From positions 1 through 64,000 of the forward strand of contig CACZSN010000040.1 in NCBI GenBank assembly GCA_902783835.1: a stretch of DNA of 64,000 bases. Reading direction: 5' to 3'. The notes beneath the pieces are model-generated. The model ran no database searches, was not told the DNA's origin, and saw only the letters and a list, made by a program, of their open reading frames with translations. Every line of letters starts with the position of its first letter. The stretch's first letter is position 1. This document shows, in pieces, positions 1,271 to 41,098 of this stretch. The DNA comes from an uncultured bacterium (GTDB lineage: Bacteria; Cyanobacteriota; Vampirovibrionia; Gastranaerophilales; Gastranaerophilaceae). The translations under genes and the position numbers were made by a program.

Positions 1271-2446
1271 ATGCAATTAGCAGAAGGTTTACAAAATCTT
1301 TGGATGTCGACCGGTATTATGAACTTTATCAAGCCGGTTGACCCGAGTTTGAGCGGTGTAGAACAAATTATGCATCAATTTGGTGCTCCGATTATGATTA
1401 TCGTATGTTTGTTCTTGCTTTGGCTCGGTATTAAAAAACAATTTGAACCGTTGCTTTTGGTTCCTATCGCATTTGGTGGTTTGCTTTCAAACATCCCTGT
1501 ATGTGATATGGCAGGTCCGAACGGATTTTTGGGTATCGTTTATGAAATCGGTATCCACAGAGGTTTGTTCCCGTTGATTATCTTTATGGGCGTTGGTGCT
1601 ATGACGGACTTCGGCCCGTTGATTGCAAACCCTAAGACATTACTTTTGGGTGGTGCTGCTCAATTTGGTATCTTCGGTGCATTGTTGATGGCTCTTGTTT
1701 GCTTCGGATTTACTCTTCCGCAAGCAGGTGCAATCGGTATTATCGGCGGTGCTGATGGCCCGACATCAATCTTCGTTACATCAAAACTTGCTCCTGAACT
1801 TTTAGGTGCAATCGCTGTTGCTGCATATTCATATATGGCACTCGTTCCTGTTATTCAACCACCGATTATGAAATTGTTAACAACAGATGCAGAACGTAAA
1901 ATTGAAATGAAACAACTCAGAGAAGTTACAAAAAGAGAAAAAATCGTATTCCCTCTTGCCGTTTTGGTTCTTTGTGCAATCTTCTTGCCAGATGCTTGCC
2001 CACTCGTAGGTGCATTGACATTTGGTAACTTGTGTAAAGAATGTGGCGTTACTGACAGATTGTCAGATACGATGCAAAATGCTTTAATTAATATTGTAAC
2101 AATCTTCTTGGGTTTGTCAGTCGGTTCAAAACTTTCAGCAGAACAATTCTTGACTCCCCAAACATTGTTCATCTTGATTTTGGGTATCATCGCATTCTCA
2201 CTTGCAACTGCTGCAGGTGTAATCATGGCGAAGATTATGAACTTATTCTTGAAAGAAAAAATCAATCCGCTTATCGGTTCGGCAGGTGTTTCTGCTGTTC
2301 CTATGGCTGCTCGTGTATCAAATAAAGTCGGTCTTGAATATAACCCTCAAAACTACCTCTTGATGCACGCTATGGGTCCGAACGTCGCAGGCGTTATCGG
2401 CTCAGCAGTTGCAGCAGGCGTTTTGCTTTCATTGATTCCTCACTAA
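1271..2446 (+). CDS. oadB: Na+-translocating decarboxylase beta subunit
   Basis: This 391-aa polytopic membrane protein is the ion-pumping beta subunit of the OadB/GcdB/MmdB family. It couples decarboxylation of carboxybiotin on the alpha subunit to Na+ export. The conserved core [17 protein letters not shown] is present at about residues 160-176, and the C-terminal stretch ends in [20 protein letters not shown] strong AGGAGG ribosome binding site sits 7 nt before the ATG, and the gene follows oadA directly, which supports a bicistronic unit. A rho-independent terminator follows the stop. The substrate (oxaloacetate, methylmalonyl-CoA or glutaconyl-CoA) is not decided by this subunit. Confidence 0.93.
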
Positions 2447-2471
2447 TGGGTAATAAACTGAAATCTTTAAA

Positions 2472-2498
2472 AACACTCTCTTCGGAGAGTGTTTTTTT
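2472..2498 (+). terminator. rho-independent terminator after oadB
   Basis: A 9-bp perfect stem (AACACTCTC / GAGAGTGTT) with a TTCG tetraloop is followed by a T tract. It lies 26 nt after the oadB stop codon. Confidence 0.93.
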
Positions 2499-2612
2499 AT
2501 TCTGCGTCGAAAAATAATTGTTACAATCTGTTACAAATGAAAACTAAAAATTAAAGTTTCTCTCTCAAAGTGCCGATATATATAGAGTAAGGTAAGTTGA
2601 AAGGTGAATACA

Positions 2613-2714
2613 ATGACAATGAACGAAGTAGTTAATGAAGTAGTTTTGAACTTGAGCCTTTTTGAAATGTTCAACACTTTTGAAAATGAAATCGTTAATG
2701 TTTTGAACAAATAG
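2613..2714 (+). CDS. small 33-aa protein, unknown function
   Basis: The ORF starts MTMNEVVNEVV and ends in NVLNK. An AAAGGTG ribosome binding site lies just upstream of the ATG at 2613. The unit is isolated between the oadB terminator and a terminator of its own about 40 nt after the stop, so it should be transcribed separately. The peptide is acidic with regularly spaced V, L and F residues and could form one amphipathic helix. It resembles no family I recognise. It may be a small protein or a leader peptide; with only 33 codons, chance remains possible. Confidence 0.5.
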   Translation: MTMNEVVNEVVLNLSLFEMFNTFENEIVNVLNK

Positions 2715-2752
2715 TTCGTTAAAAATATTTTTTAGTTTTAGAGAAGAAAAAA

Positions 2753-2780
2753 GAAACCGCTGAGGACGGTTTCTTTTTTT
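2753..2780 (+). terminator. rho-independent terminator after the 33-aa ORF
   Basis: The stem GAAACCG / CGGTTTC with a 7-nt loop is followed by a run of T residues (2771-2780, one C). It lies 39 nt after the stop of the small ORF. Confidence 0.88.
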
Positions 2781-2791
2781 ATGTGTTGTTT

Positions 2792-2898
2792 AACACTGAT
2801 AGTGTTTTTAGTTATCGTTGTTGTGTTTTTATTATAACACTATTTGTGTTAATTTTTCTTGTAACTTCTTGTTAGTGCTGTAAAACACTAATAGTGTT
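2792..2898. repeat. cluster of three 15-bp palindromes
   Basis: Three near-perfect inverted repeats lie in 107 bp: AACACTGATAGTGTT (2792-2806), AACACTATTTGTGTT (2836-2850) and AACACTAATAGTGTT (2884-2898). The third overlaps the stop codon of the minus-strand metallo-hydrolase. The gap is between convergent units, so a promoter operator role is not obvious. Each copy could form a 6-bp stem with a 3-nt loop, or bind a dimeric protein. The same motif recurs inside genes elsewhere in the window. Confidence 0.75.
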
Positions 2899-3523
2899 AT
2901 TTAAAATATGGGTTGTGTAATTTTTCTGCTTTTAAAGTTGTAGAAGGTCCGTGACCGGGGTAGACGAGAGTATCATCATCGAGGGGAGCCAGTTTTGTTT
3001 TAAGAGAATTTATTAAGGCATTGAAGTTGCCGCCGGGGAGGTCACATCGACCGACTTCGCCTGCAAAAAGAGTATCTCCGCTGAATAAGAGGTTATCGAT
3101 TTTAAAGCAAACACCACCTTGAGTGTGTCCCGGGGTTTCTATAACCTGAATTTTATGTTTTCCGAGGTACAGTTCGGAATTTTCGTCAATATATTGAGTA
3201 ATTTTAACAGGCGGATATTGTTCCTGAAATCCGAAAAGTTGGAGCATGTCGTTGATATTTTCCGCAAAAAGTTTATCCTTTTCATTCATTAAAACGGGAA
3301 TATTGTTGTTTCCTTCCTGCATTAAGGGAATGCCCATAATATGGTCAAAATGCCCGTGAGTACAGAGGATTGCTTTTAATGTTGCACCTTGTTGTTCAAT
3401 ATATGATTTGATTTTATGATAACCGCCGCCGAGGTCTATGATTATTGCTTCTTTACTTTCTTCATCAATTACCGCCCAGCAGTTTGTTTGAATGGGATTT
3501 TCTATAAATAATTGAATTTTCAT
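2897..3523 (-). CDS. MBL-fold metallo-hydrolase (glyoxalase II-like)
   Basis: This 208-aa cytoplasmic metallo-beta-lactamase-fold hydrolase carries the zinc motif THGHFDH (about residues 57-63), ETPGHTQGG, FSGDTLF and a C-terminal PGHGP. This arrangement is typical of the short glyoxalase II-like (YcbL-type) subfamily, which hydrolyses thioesters or related compounds. The ATG at 3523 is chosen because AAGGA lies 8 nt upstream; a longer start at 3607 would run into the divergent rnhC gene. The substrate is unknown. Confidence 0.87.
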   Translation of the reverse strand: MKIQLFIENPIQTNCWAVIDEESKEAIIIDLGGGYHKIKSYIEQQGATLKAILCTHGHFDHIMGIPLMQEGNNNIPVLMNEKDKLFAENINDMLQLFGFQEQYPPVKITQYIDENSELYLGKHKIQVIETPGHTQGGVCFKIDNLLFSGDTLFAGEVGRCDLPGGNFNALINSLKTKLAPLDDDTLVYPGHGPSTTLKAEKLHNPYFK

Positions 3524-3538
3524 CTGTTTATCCTTTTG

Positions 3539-3547
3539 TGATATGCT
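3539..3547 (+). promoter_or_regulatory. extended -10 before rnhC, leaderless geometry
   Basis: TG-A-TATGCT ends exactly 6 nt before the ATG at 3554, so the predicted +1 is the A of the start codon. No ribosome binding site is visible and no clear -35 was found. Confidence 0.4.
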
Positions 3548-3553
3548 TTTCAT

Positions 3554-4456
3554 ATGAATATTTACACAAACAAATTTTCCGCTCAACAAGTTGATAAAAT
3601 CGGTCAATTTTTTGAGAGTATAAATGCAAAATTCTCCCCTTTACAATATGCTTATTGGAAAGCGGAAGGAGATGGATATGTTGCTTCATTGTATAAATCC
3701 TTTAAGTTTGTCTTACAGGGTAAGGCAACGGACAGGATTGCTCTTGAGTTTGAAAAATTTATGGGAATTTCTACAATTGTTTCTGAGCAGAAATTATTTG
3801 ATATATCTGATTATGAAAATAACGATGTATGTTTTTCAAGATACATCGGGACAGACGAGTCGGGCAAGGGCGATTTCTTTGGTCCGCTTGTGATTGCAGG
3901 GGTTTACGTTGACGAAGAACTTTCGAAAAAATTTGTTGATTTAGGGATAAAAGACAGTAAAAAACTTGATGATAAAACGATAATCAAATTGTCTGCCCAT
4001 ATTAGAAATAATGCTCCTCATTCGGTTGTTGTGATTATGCCTGAAAAATATAATGAACTTTATAATTCATTTAAAAATTTAAATAAATTACTTGCTTGGG
4101 GGCATGCAAGAGCCATAGAAAATGTTTTGGCAAGGCAATCTTGTGATTGTGCTTTGTCCGATAAATTCGGTGATGAATCACTTATAAAAAATGCACTTTT
4201 GAAAAACGGTCGTAATATTAACCTCGAACAAAGGGTAAGAGGGGAAAGTTACATCGGTGTTGCGGCGGCTTCCGTAATCGCGCGGGCGGAATTTGTCAGA
4301 CGCTGCGATGAATTGAGCGGTAAGTTCTCTCTTGATTTTCCAAAAGGTGCAAGTGATAAAGTCATCTTGACCGCAAAAAAATTTGCGGAAAAATATGGAA
4401 AAGAAAATTTAAAATGCGTTGCAAAAATGCATTTTAAAACTGTTCAATCTGTTTAA
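3554..4456 (+). CDS. rnhC: ribonuclease HIII
   Basis: RNase HIII (300 aa) cuts the RNA strand of RNA:DNA hybrids in the cytoplasm. An N-terminal TBP-like substrate-binding domain (about residues 1-85) precedes the catalytic domain, which starts with YIGTDESGKGDFFGPLVIAG. The D and E of this motif are metal ligands, and further acidic residues follow around GIKDSKKL and CALSDKFGDE. The RGES stretch near residue 230 is also typical of the family. Length fits RNase HIII rather than HII. The gene is divergent from the MBL hydrolase with only 30 nt between the start codons. Confidence 0.93.
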   Translation: MNIYTNKFSAQQVDKIGQFFESINAKFSPLQYAYWKAEGDGYVASLYKSFKFVLQGKATDRIALEFEKFMGISTIVSEQKLFDISDYENNDVCFSRYIGTDESGKGDFFGPLVIAGVYVDEELSKKFVDLGIKDSKKLDDKTIIKLSAHIRNNAPHSVVVIMPEKYNELYNSFKNLNKLLAWGHARAIENVLARQSCDCALSDKFGDESLIKNALLKNGRNINLEQRVRGESYIGVAAASVIARAEFVRRCDELSGKFSLDFPKGASDKVILTAKKFAEKYGKENLKCVAKMHFKTVQSV

Positions 4457-34930: not shown

Positions 34931-36667
34931 ATGACTGATATTAATCCTAATAAATCTCTTTTTGTAAAAAACAATGCGAAAAATAATTTAAGTTTTGGAC
35001 AGGCAAATATTAATATTGCCGCATTAAGTGACACTCACGGTCAGATTGATAAATGTGCCGCCATTCAAGATACTTATGAAAAAAATAAAGAACAAATTCA
35101 CCCTGACGGACAAAATCCGAGCAATAAAAATGTTTTTGCCGTTGTCGGTGATTGGTTTATGAACCCGACGAGAAAAGGTTATTTGTCTTTTAAAGAAACT
35201 ATCGGCGATATGCAAGGTAAGTTTTTGGGCGATATGATTAACAGAATGAAATCGGGTTTGGGCAATTTGACAACTCTTTATACTCCCGGAAACCATTGTC
35301 TCGAAGGCGGAGATTCTTTCCTTTTTGACAAGACCAAAAAATGCGATATGACAACGGTTATGACAAACGTAAACGTTGAAAATTCAAAGTCTGTTACATC
35401 GCTTGAACCGGAAGCTCAAAAAAGAATTACGACTTCGACAGTTCTTGAAGTTCCCGATGATAAAAATCCCGATAAGGTTCACAAAATGCTCGTTTTGGGT
35501 ATGATTTGCCCCAATATGGACTATTATTGCAACGGTTTGATTAACGATTTGGATATTTTGGACAGAAATCGCAAAAAAGAAGTAAAACTTGAAGAAGGCG
35601 ATTTGACTGAAACTTATAAGCAATTCAACGAAGAAATTGCTAAGTTTAAGGAAGAAAACCCCGATTCTCCTGTTATGCTCTTAAATCACGCAGGACAAAG
35701 AGTTGTTCAAATGCTTTGTAATAATTGTGATTTGGATCTCGTTTTGAACGGGCATGATCATAAAGATGAAACTTCTGTATTTACAAGTGCAAAGACAGGC
35801 AAGGAAACATTTGTTTGTTCTCTTTCCGAAAATGCAAAACTTATGGATGCTGTTAATGTTCATTTTGATGATGACGGAAAATATTCATTTAACGCAAAAA
35901 CTTTGTACGTAAAATTAGAAGAACAAGATGCTATTTTCAAGAAGCAATTTGATGAAACTTTTGCTGAAGATACAAAAGGAATTGTTGAAATTACCGACCC
36001 TGCGGGAAGTGACAGATTAAAGGTAAACAATATCAGATTTGCCGATAATCCGCTTGAAAAATTAGTTACGGATACAATTATTTCGCACATCAGAACGAAA
36101 GAACCCGATACTCAATTGTTTATGATGAACACATCTGCATTTCGTTCGGAACTTCAAGTTGACAAAGAAAATCCTGTTACAAATATGCAACTTATGGATT
36201 TGATGAGCGGATTGATTGAAAAAGAAGCCAAAATAAGAGTCGGCAATTTTAGCGGAGAAACTATTGCAAAAATGGTTGACCAAAATATCAGAGAAAACAA
36301 CGAAAATAAGACTCGAAATGTCTTGATGGGTTGGTCGGGATTACAAATGGACAGAGGGGCGATTATTCGTTTGCAAAACGAAGGCAACACCGATATGAAG
36401 GAAGTTGCTAAATATATTAAAATTATGGATGAAAACGGTGAGTATCAACCTATAAATATGTCTCAAACATATAAAACTGCCGTAACTCAAAAATTGTTCG
36501 ATAAAACAACGATTGAAGATGTTAAAAATTCCGATTCTTCATTTATTCATCTTGGAGAAACTGCAAACGACTGTTTGTTGGCAGGTGTAAAAGAAAAGGG
36601 TTACAAACTTACCGTTCCTCAAGATATCAGAGTAATTGATGACGGTGAAGGCGAAAGAAAATCATAA
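34931..36667 (+). CDS. metallophosphoesterase / 5'-nucleotidase family protein without signal peptide
   Basis: This 578-aa protein has both domains of UshA-type 5'-nucleotidases. The metallophosphoesterase domain has AALSDTHGQID (D-x-H), VVGDWF, TPGNHCLEG, LLNHAG and NGHDH. The C-terminal domain (about residues 345-560) has NMQLMDLMSG and GNFSGETIAKMVDQNI, a substrate-pocket region. Family members are usually periplasmic, but no signal peptide is present; instead there is a short polar leader with NNLSFGQ. A GGTGGTG stretch lies before the ATG. Substrate and location are uncertain. Confidence 0.82.
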   Translation: MTDINPNKSLFVKNNAKNNLSFGQANINIAALSDTHGQIDKCAAIQDTYEKNKEQIHPDGQNPSNKNVFAVVGDWFMNPTRKGYLSFKETIGDMQGKFLGDMINRMKSGLGNLTTLYTPGNHCLEGGDSFLFDKTKKCDMTTVMTNVNVENSKSVTSLEPEAQKRITTSTVLEVPDDKNPDKVHKMLVLGMICPNMDYYCNGLINDLDILDRNRKKEVKLEEGDLTETYKQFNEEIAKFKEENPDSPVMLLNHAGQRVVQMLCNNCDLDLVLNGHDHKDETSVFTSAKTGKETFVCSLSENAKLMDAVNVHFDDDGKYSFNAKTLYVKLEEQDAIFKKQFDETFAEDTKGIVEITDPAGSDRLKVNNIRFADNPLEKLVTDTIISHIRTKEPDTQLFMMNTSAFRSELQVDKENPVTNMQLMDLMSGLIEKEAKIRVGNFSGETIAKMVDQNIRENNENKTRNVLMGWSGLQMDRGAIIRLQNEGNTDMKEVAKYIKIMDENGEYQPINMSQTYKTAVTQKLFDKTTIEDVKNSDSSFIHLGETANDCLLAGVKEKGYKLTVPQDIRVIDDGEGERKS

Positions 36668-36686: not shown

Positions 36687-36715
36687 TTGCAATATTAAAC
36701 AGTTCTTGATAAAAT
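36687..36715 (+). promoter_or_regulatory. promoter of the HAD-aminotransferase operon, leaderless geometry
   Basis: TTGCAA (36687-36692), 17-bp spacer ending in TGA, TAAAAT (36710-36715), then 6 nt (CGTGTC) and ATG at 36722. No ribosome binding site is present between -10 and ATG. Confidence 0.75.
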
Positions 36716-36721
36716 CGTGTC

Positions 36722-37372
36722 ATGGAAAATGATGCGATTTTTATTTGTGATTTTGACGGTACTATCACCAAAAAGGACACAATTAACGATTTTTTAGAAA
36801 AATTTGCCGATAAAAAGTGGCTTGAAATAGAAGATGATTGGGTTGCGGGTAAAGTGCCGACTTGCGATGCGATGAGGATGCAATTCGGCTTGATAAAGAA
36901 TATGACCCGAGAAGTTTTTGACCGATTTTTCGAAACGGTAGAAATTGATGATTATTTTGAAAAATTTTATAAACTTTGCAAACAAAAAAACATAAAAGTT
37001 GTAATTGTAAGTGACGGATTTGAGTATTTCATTCGCAGAGTTCTTTCTAAATACGGCATTAATGATATAGAAATTTATTCTAATCATTTTGAGTTTAATG
37101 ACGGTAATTTTATTATGGAATTTCCGTATAAGAATGATGAATGTCAACGCGGAGCAGGAACTTGTAAATGTTCATTTATTCAAAAGTTCAAAAAATTTTA
37201 TAAGACTGTTATTTATGTCGGGGACGGGGCTTCTGACTTTTGTCCCGCTTCTAAGGCTGATTTTTTATTTGCAAAGAAGAAACTTTTGGAGTATTGTAAA
37301 AAGAAAAATATCGTTTATGTTAAATATTCCGATTTTAACGAGGTAATTAAGCATGACATCTTTAAAAACTGA
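36722..37372 (+). CDS. HAD-superfamily phosphatase, MtnX-like
   Basis: This 216-aa enzyme has HAD motif I DFDGT (residues 10-14, nucleophile Asp), motif II VIVSDGF, and motif IV VGDGASDFCPASKAD. The cap sequence KNDECQRGAGTCK, with a CxxGxxxCK pattern, matches MtnX-like phosphatases. MtnX acts in methionine salvage, but no other salvage gene is nearby, so the substrate is open. Its end overlaps the aminotransferase gene by 20 nt. It is the first gene of a four-gene operon and its ATG sits at the predicted transcription start. Confidence 0.84.
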   Translation: MENDAIFICDFDGTITKKDTINDFLEKFADKKWLEIEDDWVAGKVPTCDAMRMQFGLIKNMTREVFDRFFETVEIDDYFEKFYKLCKQKNIKVVIVSDGFEYFIRRVLSKYGINDIEIYSNHFEFNDGNFIMEFPYKNDECQRGAGTCKCSFIQKFKKFYKTVIYVGDGASDFCPASKADFLFAKKKLLEYCKKKNIVYVKYSDFNEVIKHDIFKN

Positions 37373-38747
37373 TATAGAAAATACAATAACAGATGAAGAA
37401 CTGTTGGAATTAGACAGCAAGTATTGCTCTTTCGGTGATACCGTGCACTATTCAAAAAATCCAAAAGTTTTCCATCGTTGTGACGGAGCATATATGTATG
37501 ATGCGGATGATACACCGTATCTTGATATGCAAATGTACTTTTCCGCCGCAAATTTTGGTTATAATAACAGAAGAATTATTGACGCAGTTATCGAGCAAAT
37601 GAATACTTTGCCTCAAATTACTCCTAAATATGTTCACAAATACAAAGTTCTGTTGTCGGAGAAATTATGTAAAGCTTGTGAAACAAGATTTGGCGAAGCA
37701 GGAAGAATTAATTTTAACGTAGGTGGTGCTCAGGCTGTTGAAGATATGATTAAGTTAGTGCGTGCAAATACGCATAGAAACAGCTTTTTTGCATTCCAAG
37801 GCGGATATCACGGAAAAACAGTTGCAACTACCGCAATTTCTTCAAATTTTAAATACCGTGAAAAATATGGTCATTACGGTGACAGAGCACACTTTGTTCC
37901 GTTCCCGTATTGTTTCAGATGTCCTTTTGACAAAAAATGTGACAGTTGTGATTTTTATTGCGTAAAACATTTTGAACGCCAATTTGACAGTGAATACAAA
38001 GGTTTATGCAATCCTTCGGATAATGAAACCGAATATAAAGCATTTATCGCGGAACCAGTATTGGGAACAGGCGGTTATATTAATGCTCCTGAAGGTTATT
38101 TCAAAGAGCTCAAGAAGGTATTAGACAAATTTGGCATCATGTTTATCGATGATGAAATTCAAATGGGATTTTATCGTACGGGTAAACTTTGGGCGATTGA
38201 AAATTACGGTGTAACACCTGATGTAATTTGTTTTGCTAAGTCTTTGACAAACGGTATGAACCCATTGTCAGGTTTCTGGGCAAAAGAAAAATACATCAAT
38301 CCCGAAAAATTCCCTCCGGGATCAGCTCATTCAACATTCTGTTCAAATCCTATCGGTACTCGTGCAGGATACGAAGTTATGAAGATGATTGAGGAAGAAA
38401 ACTTTGATGTTACCGTTCCTGAAAAAGGAAAATACTTCCTTGACGGATTGAAAGAAATTCAAAAACATCACAAATGTATCGGGGAAGTTGGCGGTTTAGG
38501 TTTAGCATTACGTGCGGAACTCGTTTGTGAAGACGGAATTTCTCCGAACAGAGAATTGTGCGGAAAAGTTTTGGCTGAAGGCTTAAAAGGCGATTTGACA
38601 TACAAAGGTCAAAAGTGCGGATTGATTTTGCACAATGGCGGTTTCTATAAAAATATTATTACGTTCGTTCCGAATGTGTATATTACAAAAGATGAAATCG
38701 ATATGGCACTTGAACTTTTAGACGTACTTCTGACGAGGTGCGAATAG
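37353..38747 (+). CDS. class III PLP-dependent aminotransferase
   Basis: This 464-aa enzyme has the class III fold: QGGYHGKTVATTAISS, EPVLGTGGYINAPEGYFKELKKV, FIDDEIQMGFYRTGKLW (PLP-ring Asp region) and FAKSLTNGMNPLSG with the Schiff-base Lys (about residue 290). An insert near residue 190 reads YCFRCPFDKKCDSCDFYC and carries five Cys, suggesting a metal or structural site. The donor and acceptor are unknown. It overlaps the phosphatase gene upstream and abuts the hydrolase gene downstream. Confidence 0.88.
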   Translation: MTSLKTDIENTITDEELLELDSKYCSFGDTVHYSKNPKVFHRCDGAYMYDADDTPYLDMQMYFSAANFGYNNRRIIDAVIEQMNTLPQITPKYVHKYKVLLSEKLCKACETRFGEAGRINFNVGGAQAVEDMIKLVRANTHRNSFFAFQGGYHGKTVATTAISSNFKYREKYGHYGDRAHFVPFPYCFRCPFDKKCDSCDFYCVKHFERQFDSEYKGLCNPSDNETEYKAFIAEPVLGTGGYINAPEGYFKELKKVLDKFGIMFIDDEIQMGFYRTGKLWAIENYGVTPDVICFAKSLTNGMNPLSGFWAKEKYINPEKFPPGSAHSTFCSNPIGTRAGYEVMKMIEEENFDVTVPEKGKYFLDGLKEIQKHHKCIGEVGGLGLALRAELVCEDGISPNRELCGKVLAEGLKGDLTYKGQKCGLILHNGGFYKNIITFVPNVYITKDEIDMALELLDVLLTRCE

Positions 38748-39572
38748 TTGGGTTCGGCTTTCAAATTTATTAATGAAGAAAATCCGAAAAAGGCTGTCTT
38801 GTTGTTCCACGGACTCACAGGCAGCCCTTTTGAAATGAAAAAATTTGGCAAATTCTTATCGGAGCACGGTTATGATGTCTATGGGGCTTGTTTGCCCGGA
38901 CATGGTGAGTTCAAGGATGATATTTACACTGTTTCTTATGAGGATTGGGTAAATTATGCATCCGAACAATTTGAAAAATTGTGTGAAGAATATGAAGAAG
39001 TCTATTTAGGCGGATTATGTCTCGGTGCGGTTGTTTCGCTTGCATTGTGCGAAAAATACCAAGAAAAAGTTAAGGGTGCTGTTTTGTTATCTACAACATT
39101 GTATCTGGACGGCTGGAGATTGCCTTGGTATGCTTGTTTTATGCCTTTCGGACTTCATACCGTTTTCAGATATTATTATCAATATCCCGAATGTGAACCT
39201 TATGGTGTTAAAAATAAACGGGTTCGCGAAATTGTCAAAAAAGCACTTGCTAAAACGGACGGTGGAATGGATACGTACCCTATGTGTGCTTTCCACGAGC
39301 TTTTAGAGCTTTCTCAAGATGTTCGTTATGACTTGGATGTTGTAACTTCACCGCTTTTGATTATTCATTCAAGAGAAGACGATTTGGCAAGTAAAAAAGG
39401 TGCGGAAGAAGTTTATCGCAGTGTTTCTTCGACAGATAAAGAGTTGATAATTTTGGAAGACAGTTATCATATGGTTTTGTACGATAACGAAAAAGATTTT
39501 GTATTTAAAAAATCTCTTGAATTTTTGGATACACACTCTGCAAATTTGAAAACAGAGGCGGTGACGGCATGA
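38748..39572 (+). CDS. alpha/beta hydrolase, carboxylesterase-like with Cys nucleophile
   Basis: This 274-aa protein resembles Est30-type carboxylesterases: VLLFHGLTGSPFEMKKFGKFL with the oxyanion HG, then LPGHGEFKDD, the nucleophile elbow GGLCLGAVVS (about residues 92-101), the acid in HSREDDLA and His in DSYHMVL. The elbow is G-L-C-L-G where family members have G-x-S-x-G, so the nucleophile would be Cys, as in dienelactone hydrolases or PHA synthases. It starts with TTG immediately after the aminotransferase stop, with GAGGTG upstream. Substrate unknown. Confidence 0.83.
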   Translation: MGSAFKFINEENPKKAVLLFHGLTGSPFEMKKFGKFLSEHGYDVYGACLPGHGEFKDDIYTVSYEDWVNYASEQFEKLCEEYEEVYLGGLCLGAVVSLALCEKYQEKVKGAVLLSTTLYLDGWRLPWYACFMPFGLHTVFRYYYQYPECEPYGVKNKRVREIVKKALAKTDGGMDTYPMCAFHELLELSQDVRYDLDVVTSPLLIIHSREDDLASKKGAEEVYRSVSSTDKELIILEDSYHMVLYDNEKDFVFKKSLEFLDTHSANLKTEAVTA

Positions 39573-39895
39573 CATTGACATTTATTATTTTGAGTGTTTT
39601 AACATCACTTTCTTTTGTTTTGGGAAAATTGTTCTTTTATAATCACGAAAATAAGTTTATCAGAGAAAAAAGCATAACCATCAGTGTAATAATTATGTCT
39701 ATATACTCTGTATTTTCAATTGTGGGAATGTTCTTTGCATCTGTTCCCGCAAAACCGATAATGGTATTTTGCGGTTTTTCACCGTTTATTATAGGACATT
39801 TTGCAACTTATAAAAGGCTAAATTATTATAGCGTAATGCAACTTTTGATATTCCTTGCCGGAATTATTTACGCTGTCGGAAACGGTTTGTCGTAA
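39569..39895 (+). CDS. small membrane protein, unknown
   Basis: This 108-aa protein has three to four membrane segments (about residues 2-20, 35-56, 63-78 and 88-105) with short charged loops (NHENKFIREK). It overlaps the hydrolase gene by 4 nt (ATGA) and closes the operon. No family is recognised. A terminator follows after about 160 nt. Confidence 0.7.
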   Translation: MTLTFIILSVLTSLSFVLGKLFFYNHENKFIREKSITISVIIMSIYSVFSIVGMFFASVPAKPIMVFCGFSPFIIGHFATYKRLNYYSVMQLLIFLAGIIYAVGNGLS

Positions 39896-40101: not shown

Positions 40102-40905
40102 TTATTTTTTATTGAAGAACAAATGTTGTGCTGCATCATTGAATGGCTCTTTTGACGGGTGTCCCGGTACAAATCTGTCTTTCAAAATTGTTATGGGTAA
40201 TGTGTCTCCCGTATAAATCGGTTTTGCTTCGGTGTTTATGTTTCGGTAAGCCTCATTAGGACCTTTTTCACCGTTTATATCAACCCAAATAACCCCATAA
40301 GTGTCTTCGCCGAATTTTTCATTATTGGCAATTTTTTCATAGCTAATACAGTATCTCATACCGTCAGCCGTGTAAAAATATTCAATCGGGGTTGTTTCCG
40401 ATGTACAAGATGCAAGGGTTGTATAATTAAATAAACTCTTTGTATCTGTTGCAATTGTGTAATATATGACTTGGTTATTGGAAATACCGCGGATATTTAC
40501 AATTTGCATGTGTTTAGTGAGAATTTTGTTCAAAATTTGATAAACATTGTCAAGTTTTCCGTTTTCTCCGATATTGTAACGGTTTCCGTCATTAACCCAA
40601 TCATACTTAATCACAGGGTTTGAATCCGTTTCAGGATTTCCGTTTTCGTCTAAAATTTCACCGTTAGAACCATATTGAGTTTTTGCATATTTCTTTTTGC
40701 TTCCTGATGAAATGTCAGTCGGAGGACTGTTATAATATGCAGAATAAGCGTTATTTAAATTGTTCAACGCTTTTTGATATGCAGCTCCGATGTCACGATT
40801 TTTATAATCCGAAATTACCGCAGGAACGGTATATAAAGCAACAGTGCCGATAATGACTAATGTCAATAAAGTTTCCGCTAAAGTAAAACCGTGTTGTTTC
40901 TGCAT
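40102..40905 (-). CDS. prepilin-like protein with type IV pilin N-terminus
   Basis: This 267-aa protein starts MQKQHGFTLAETLLTLVIIGTVALY, a class III-like prepilin signal. Cleavage before F7 leaves the conserved Glu 5 of the mature chain (FTLAE), followed by a hydrophobic helix. The globular part is Tyr/Asn-rich with no catalytic motif. It is longer than a typical major pilin, so it may be a minor pilin or a pseudopilin of a secretion system. The ATG at 40905 is chosen because a start at 40983 would put 26 residues before the signal and overlap the tRNA. A tRNA-Leu gene lies just upstream. Confidence 0.83.
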   Translation of the reverse strand: MQKQHGFTLAETLLTLVIIGTVALYTVPAVISDYKNRDIGAAYQKALNNLNNAYSAYYNSPPTDISSGSKKKYAKTQYGSNGEILDENGNPETDSNPVIKYDWVNDGNRYNIGENGKLDNVYQILNKILTKHMQIVNIRGISNNQVIYYTIATDTKSLFNYTTLASCTSETTPIEYFYTADGMRYCISYEKIANNEKFGEDTYGVIWVDINGEKGPNEAYRNINTEAKPIYTGDTLPITILKDRFVPGHPSKEPFNDAAQHLFFNKK

Positions 40906-40944
40906 TCTTAATCTTTCTTTTTTCTGAAAACAGACACAAAAAAA

Positions 40945-41025
40945 TGTCGAAGATGGGACTTGAACCCATACAGATTGCTCCACACGCCCCTCAAACGTGC
41001 GCGTCTACCATTCCGCCACTCCGAC
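40945..41025 (-). tRNA. tRNA-Leu (anticodon GAG)
   Basis: The minus strand folds into a full cloverleaf of about 81 nt. The acceptor stem is GTCGGAG / CTTCGAC with discriminator A, the D arm is GCGGAATGGTAGACGC and the anticodon loop TTGAGGG has anticodon GAG. A short extra arm is followed by a T arm with GGGTTCAAGTCCC. The 3' CCA is not encoded. Confidence 0.93.
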
Positions 41026-41098
41026 ATTTAGGTACAACTATATTATGTCACACAAAGAGAATAGTCAACACTTTTTTTATAAAAATTTGAAGAAATTT

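Follow-up and report, generated by a model that had tools for sequence, protein, structure and literature searches.

We analysed a 64,000-nucleotide stretch of DNA from an uncultured bacterium of the order Gastranaerophilales (the window; G000:C40:1-64000, from an assembly totalling 1.88 Mb) and found that four genes in it, at 36722-39895, are almost certainly one functional unit. We call the genes HAD, AT, ABH and MEM, and the set the cassette. Their linkage, their co-inheritance across 386 genomes and their retention in genomes where the cassette has been split all lead to this judgement. We read the four genes as one operon, a compact Gastranaerophilales form of a widespread and undescribed pathway for an amine-bearing lipid or a lipid-linked envelope component, and give this reading a probability of about 50%; any particular product that might be named is unlikely to be the right one.

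All four genes are on the forward strand. HAD (36722-37372) encodes an MtnX-like HAD-IB phosphatase of 216 amino acids, recognised by model scores and motifs, and AT (37353-38747) encodes a class III aminotransferase-fold enzyme of 464 amino acids that depends on pyridoxal phosphate (PLP), recognised by family PF00202 and its PLP residues. ABH (38748-39572), which has a TTG start directly after the AT stop codon, encodes an alpha/beta hydrolase of 274 amino acids (PF12146 and fold), and MEM (39569-39895) encodes a small hydrophobic protein of 108 amino acids, identified by hydropathy, for which no Pfam family was found. HAD and AT overlap by 20 bp, AT and ABH abut with a gap of 0 bp, and ABH and MEM overlap by 4 bp (ATGA). 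A preliminary description of this DNA had proposed these four open reading frames (ORFs), and they are real and lie where it placed them. They are presumably carried on a single transcript.

Linkage and co-inheritance of the four genes

We use L-numbers for loci and G-numbers for genomes, G000 being the window's own. The linkage sample was 52 distinct Gastranaerophilales loci, after six duplicates were dropped; two of them are truncated downstream of AT and two upstream. ABH lies directly 3' of AT in 48 of the 50 uncut loci. In every one of these 48, ABH is followed by a same-strand ORF of 80-180 amino acids, and in 46 that ORF clusters with MEM by sequence. HAD is directly ahead of AT in 38 of 50 uncut loci and at most three genes away in five more. 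The remaining seven are L036, L050, L052, L088, L090, L097 and L114; whole-genome searches for three of them found HAD elsewhere in G034 (L036) and G051 (L052). The genes flanking the cassette vary from locus to locus. The preliminary description had asked whether the four genes stay together in relatives, and on these counts they do.

In an evenly drawn sample of 386 genomes from the phylum, Gastranaerophilales-type AT (E < 1e-250) and ABH (E < 1e-120) are present in exactly the same 47 genomes. At looser scores there are further matches to AT in G119, G124, G154, G215 and G295, and to ABH in G099, G154 and G345. AT and ABH are adjacent in 45 of the 47 genomes. The other two, G236 and G354, have a split cassette, with HAD-AT on one contig and ABH-MEM on another, so the genes are retained together without linkage and fall into two natural sub-pairs. 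A second set of 59 genomes (the window's own and 58 relatives) gave a similar picture: 25 of the 58 relatives, as well as the window's own genome, have an AT orthologue (at least 53% identity), the other matches (28-42%) being paralogues or fragments. ABH is present in 25 of the 26 AT-bearing genomes and in none of the 33 others, and the single miss, G048, has its AT at a contig edge. Close HAD homologues are found in 25 of the 26 AT-bearing genomes compared to 1 of the 33 others. From the linkage counts and the 47 shared genomes, the co-occurrence of the cassette genes exceeds chance, and the earlier claim of one functional unit holds; Fisher values for the AT/ABH co-occurrence ignore shared ancestry.

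A few loci show other arrangements. Two extra genes (clusters c28 and c40, encoding about 230 and 243-267 amino acids) lie between HAD and AT in L103, L108 and L115, and the same two genes are ahead of AT in L097. L174 (G119) contains a fast-diverged AT paralogue adjoining a MEM homologue (2075-3791), with ABH and HAD absent from the 7 kb contig. A second subfamily of AT, with about 42-45% identity to its nearest copy, occurs in two larger cyanobacterial genomes (L175 in G124 and L176 in G215), with a neighbour set that is common to both loci; this subfamily likely has a different function.

Properties of the encoded proteins

HAD scores 139.9 bits against the MtnX-like HAD-IB phosphatase model TIGR01489 (cut-off 81.55), in agreement with the preliminary assignment, and 58.9 bits against PF06888 (Put_Phosphatase; cut-off 27). 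Its closest sequence neighbor is MtnX (PDB 2fea, E = 2.6e-28). The motif DxDGT (D10, D12), S97 and G167-D168-x-x-S171-D172 are invariant in 21 aligned copies. HAD reaches only 118.7 bits against the MtnX equivalog TIGR03333, whose cut-off is 303.2, and we therefore rejected methionine salvage as the role of the cassette.

AT scores 241.2 bits against PF00202 (cut-off 30.5), and its PLP lysine K296 and aspartate D267 are invariant in 26 aligned copies; transamination is its predicted activity. The best matches of AT, by both sequence and fold, are Ala/Ser racemase and isoleucine epimerase, but it reaches no NCBIfam equivalog, and the racemase models fall far under their cut-offs. At two carboxylate-gate positions AT has threonines (T239 and T437) where all five solved relatives listed have an aspartate or glutamate and an arginine. 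We matched these positions to E211 and R398 of Escherichia coli gamma-aminobutyric acid (GABA) aminotransferase, where E211 is the acidic gate residue and R398 the arginine that binds the carboxylate; an E211S mutant of that enzyme is among the solved structures matched by AT. Threonine at the second position is also present in distant AT copies. The two threonines suggest that AT departs from the usual mode of holding an alpha-carboxylate. The class III assignment made previously for this protein was right, but the cysteine-rich insert reported with it is not a large insert, because the stretch (C187, C190, C196, C199 and C203) aligns with an ordinary loop in the five solved relatives and is only a few residues longer. 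Most AT copies have this loop. It is replaced in 6 of 44 distant copies (L139, L150, L156, L158, L159 and L162), with the last cysteine kept, a pattern that favors a structural, dispensable role.

ABH scores 102.3 bits against PF12146 (cut-off 27). Its triad Cys91-Asp211-His241, in which the nucleophile sits in the motif G-L-C-L-G, is invariant in 22 aligned Gastranaerophilales copies, so the hydrolase does have the conserved cysteine in the nucleophile position that had been proposed for it. The structure model (predicted local distance difference test, pLDDT, 79) folds like bacterial monoacylglycerol lipases, which are also its best solved matches (Foldseek, TM by query about 0.75-0.78). The cysteine marks the Gastranaerophilales ABH clade and is also found in L147 and L166, a distribution that needs three changes by parsimony. 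MEM has a hydropathy profile that fits about four predicted membrane segments, as expected for the small membrane protein that had been described. None of the four cassette proteins had a match in PADLOC (0 of 4), and we rejected a role in antiphage defence.

Distant relatives and larger operons

Close relatives in named records are from Candidatus Gastranaerophilales and uncultured rumen or gut bacteria (for example, L086 from assembly RUG841 and L087 from Lapin-032). A scan of genome contigs for AT gave at least 574 relatives, of which 80 were kept. Outside Gastranaerophilales the kept relatives, at 52-56% identity, come from Omnitrophota, Acidobacteria, Nitrospirae, Sulfurihydrogenibium, Desulfovibrio, Chloroflexi, Methylotenera, Pigmentiphaga, Orbus, Wohlfahrtiimonas, Mesorhizobium and Obscuribacterales. 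AT also occurs on 34 plasmid records, mostly from Rhizobium and Agrobacterium. Because greedy ORF calling missed AT copies (in the three GC-rich loci L133, L135 and L164), we counted neighbors by a six-frame profile search. Among 47 distant loci, this search found HAD in 41, ABH in 28, GNAT/FemAB in 21, an arginase fold in 21, a small EamA protein in 18, a response regulator in 16, a histidine kinase in 14, DegT in 12, an AMP-ligase in 10, acyl carrier protein (ACP) in 9 and a ketosynthase in 8; the profile hidden Markov models were built from the same 47 loci, so these counts describe the loci and do not test the association.

Many of these loci have a larger HAD-AT-ABH-GNAT-EamA-arginase operon, seen in Rhizobium, Agrobacterium, Xanthomonas, Methylotenera and Obscuribacterales, whose HAD, AT and ABH are orthologous to those of the window cassette. 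It differs from the cassette in its extra genes, its mostly serine nucleophile and its EamA pair in place of MEM. Annotated records with the larger gene set (Sinorhizobium, Xanthomonas sacchari and Agrobacterium) name the genes by family and leave the operon unnamed. The larger arrangement also reaches the window's own class, where G058 (L056) has a regulator pair, AT, HAD, ABH, GNAT, EamA, EamA and DegT in a row, and G055 and G056, two Gastranaerophilales genomes that bear the cassette, each contain GNAT-EamA-EamA as a locus apart from it. A Bartonella plasmid has AT with GNAT, and HAD and ABH are absent from the stretch read. We found no GNAT or arginase-fold gene elsewhere in the window's own genome, and took weak arginase matches in other genomes (at most 29.9 bits) to be ordinary ureohydrolases.

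The EamA subunits of the larger operons match the ArnE/ArnF models best, under the cut-offs; for example, the Methylotenera pair scores 42.2 and 47.5 bits where the equivalog cut-offs are 92 and 99. The two-component pair of Methylotenera is nearest to PmrA/PmrB, again under the cut-off. Efflux genes (outer membrane efflux protein, HlyD, TolC and ABC) adjoin the larger operon in three bacteria unrelated to each other, Sulfurihydrogenibium L149, Xanthomonas L184 and Agrobacterium L185. The acidobacterial locus L157 has, upstream of HAD-AT-AMP-ligase, two glycosyltransferases that resemble monogalactosyldiacylglycerol (MGDG) synthase, a DegT enzyme, an epimerase and a polysaccharide deacetylase. 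Gene fusions also occur. In L170 (G154, from another family of the class) a single 676-amino-acid protein joins HAD and ABH; its N-terminal part is 46% identical to the HAD of L145 and its middle is 50% identical to the ABH of L145. Among seven chosen proteins searched, those of L152 and L147 have ABH fused to the N-terminal half of the GNAT family (independent E-values 6e-12 and 2e-9).

In the AT tree, the Gastranaerophilales sequences lie on one side of a branch with SH-aLRT support of 95. Their successive neighbors are L124, L149 (Sulfurihydrogenibium) and L136 (Nitrospirae), all long branches whose exact placing is unsure, and Obscuribacterales and Vampirovibrionales are placed elsewhere. 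The ABH tree has the identical three neighbors in the identical order, and this agreement indicates that AT and ABH travelled together. The Gastranaerophilales copies were probably acquired from a source other than that of the copies in other orders of the class. The shared history of AT and ABH, together with AT identities of at least 52% across phyla, places the cassette in the family of the larger HAD-AT-ABH operon. Since this core is spread over many phyla, often within a larger operon, the cassette is not special to its own genome.

Beside the cassette in the window there is a promoter-like site just upstream of HAD (TTGCAA-17-TAAAAT at 36687-36715, forward strand, with a TG ahead of the second hexamer), which is weak (9 of 12 matches) and of a kind that chance alone would give. 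A calcineurin-like/5'-nucleotidase family metallophosphoesterase (34931-36667, forward strand) ends 54 bp upstream of HAD. We did not count it as a fifth member of the cassette, because, of the loci compared, only those of G000 and G001 have it directly next to HAD; in G004 the two are separated by another gene. Downstream, on the reverse strand, a tRNA-Leu (GAG) gene (40944-41026) and a pilin-like ORF with an N_methyl motif (40102-40983) overlap at the GTG where the ORF was called to start; the ORF probably begins instead at an internal ATG, position 40905 (MQKQHGFTLAETL).

A proposed pathway, its alternatives and known systems

In the pathway we propose, AT would aminate a carbonyl of a phosphorylated precursor, which may be lipid-linked, and HAD would strip the phosphate, before or after this step, to leave an amino-alcohol. 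ABH, through an acyl-enzyme on its cysteine nucleophile, would move or remove a fatty acyl group on the amino-alcohol product, and MEM would be the partner of ABH at the membrane, perhaps flipping the product or handing it on. HAD and AT are most likely the first functional pair, and ABH and MEM the second. In the larger operons the ArnE/ArnF-like EamA pair may do the flipping job of MEM, and ACP, ketosynthase, desaturase and GNAT would supply or attach acyl chains. The data show the order of the genes, their protein families and catalytic residues, their co-inheritance, the fusions and the common history of the trees; the substrate, the reaction directions, the membrane transport and the lipid nature of the product are what we infer for this scheme. 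Serinol/dihydroxyacetone-phosphate chemistry is a further hypothetical possibility that we considered. The preliminary description had suggested that the four proteins might act together in dephosphorylating, transaminating and deacylating or esterifying a small molecule. We keep these predicted activities, the gene families and the single unit, but not the free small molecule, because the gene context of the larger operons points to lipid or envelope work. Its statement that no known pathway has exactly this set is not contradicted by the literature searched: exact-word searches of titles and the beginnings of abstracts in the open-licence literature found no description of this gene set.

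A broader proposal, which we think less likely than not, is that many Gram-negative bacteria use an undescribed, phylum-spanning pathway, controlled by envelope stress, to produce an amine-bearing membrane lipid of a new class. Gut Gastranaerophilales would then have retained a minimal version with four genes, where a lipase-like enzyme has turned into an acyl transferase dependent on Cys and the flippase role has passed to a new small protein. The product might be, for example, an amino-alcohol analogue of monoacylglycerol with amide- and ester-bound acyl chains.

Several observations weigh against our reading. G028 (L050) has no HAD in a whole-genome search and retains AT-ABH-MEM, and conversely G029 retains HAD alone; in this genome (L171, 9014-9658) the genes flanking HAD match those of L101 and AT-ABH-MEM is absent between them, a clean presence/absence. 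L090 has AT with neither HAD nor ABH within its 14.9 kb. By the six-frame search AT is without HAD in 6 of the 47 distant loci, and several Acidobacteria and Omnitrophota loci have AT-HAD with an AMP-ligase and without ABH, so ABH is not always needed. In the window, no GNAT, arginase-fold, EamA, ACP or regulator gene lies beside the cassette. In the relatives set, 3 of 59 genomes have the GNAT family, and all three carry AT; among the 386 phylum genomes, a search at E 1e-20 found it in 2, one of which is without AT. The nearest two-component models vary by organism (PmrAB, RstAB or QseC). Profile comparison of MEM with the EamA subunits gave a probability of 0.2 per cent, that is, no detectable homology, and we rejected MEM as a diverged EamA subunit. 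The AT structure model has a middling pLDDT of 72, and we used it for fold class only.

The cassette might instead make a small exported specialised metabolite, such as a fatty-acid-derived amine or amide, and no membrane lipid. The ACP, ketosynthase, desaturase, GNAT and AMP-ligase genes of the larger operons, the efflux genes beside three of them, the patchy distribution and the carriage on plasmids would suit this, but in the window neither a carrier protein nor a ketosynthase or efflux gene directly adjoins the cassette, the compact form is retained in many gut genomes, and a two-component system with an ArnE/ArnF-like pair fits envelope change better; we regard this explanation as rather unlikely. 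It is unlikely, too, that AT is a PLP racemase, epimerase or lyase acting on a lipid or head group, a variant that overlaps with the reading we prefer. Its best matches and its loss of the canonical acidic/arginine pair would favor such a role, but the matched racemases retain the Asp/Glu and Arg that AT is without, and the low scores against the NCBIfam racemase models also count against it.

A soluble amino-alcohol or methionine-salvage-like pathway, with ABH an ordinary esterase and MEM an unrelated passenger, would account for the closeness of HAD to MtnX and its score against the MtnX-like subfamily model, and for a fold in AT that is used for amino acids and amines. We think it quite unlikely, given the shortfall of HAD on the MtnX equivalog, the nearness of ABH to lipid-active monoacylglycerol lipases, the two gate threonines of AT, and the co-retention of ABH and MEM even where they have been relocated together. 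Finally, the patchy presence of the genes and the grouping of the Gastranaerophilales copies with Nitrospirota, Aquificota and an unplaced genome, not with Obscuribacterales, might reflect chance neighbors that were transferred together horizontally without a shared function. The co-occurrence counts largely refute this very improbable explanation; moreover, the two genomes with a split cassette keep all its parts, the flanking genes differ between loci, and HAD is fused to ABH in one locus.

What might have been an isolated oddity of one gut genome is a co-inherited gene set, without a described product in the literature searched, whose core spans Omnitrophota, Acidobacteria, Nitrospirota, Aquificota, several Pseudomonadota and non-photosynthetic Cyanobacteriota. 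Because larger operons occur in genera with cultivable, genetically workable members (Rhizobium and Agrobacterium), the product is open to search. If it is a lipid, it would give concrete information on the envelope of gut Gastranaerophilales.

Each of the three enzymes departs from its closest known relatives. HAD shares the HAD-IB fold, all motifs and a similar cysteine-containing stretch with MtnX (2-hydroxy-3-keto-5-methylthiopentenyl-1-phosphate phosphatase, 2fea) and the PHOSPHO1-like family PF06888, but it scores well under the MtnX equivalog and its constant partners are AT, ABH and MEM. AT has the fold, PLP lysine and aspartate of Ala/Ser racemase (9wqz), isoleucine 2-epimerase and GABA aminotransferase; it differs in its cysteine loop and in having threonines where the five solved relatives have the acidic residue and arginine, and it lacks the acidic/arginine pair of class III alpha-amino-acid transaminases/racemases. 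ABH has the Asp and His of the triad in common with its best fold and sequence matches, the bacterial monoacylglycerol lipases (Bacillus H257, 3rm3; 7e04), but in every aligned Gastranaerophilales copy its nucleophile is Cys and not Ser, so the triad is not Ser-Asp-His.

The nearest analogy for the whole set is the Arn system, which adds aminoarabinose to lipid A and comprises the regulator pair PmrAB, an amine-making PLP enzyme and the small flippase pair ArnE/ArnF, together with ArnA, ArnB, ArnC, ArnD and ArnT. The larger relatives of the cassette likewise carry two ArnE/ArnF-like small EamA proteins, with a regulator pair nearest to PmrAB in one checked case. Among the neighbors that were named, DegT, epimerase and polysaccharide deacetylase genes are present at some loci. 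Unlike in Arn, the ArnE/ArnF cut-offs are missed, ArnA, ArnC and ArnT were not seen among the neighbors examined, and no Arn-like gene lies beside the window cassette. Since those cut-offs are missed and most Arn enzymes are unseen, we do not consider the cassette a member of the Arn system; by analogy, its layout is somewhat like that of an Arn module.

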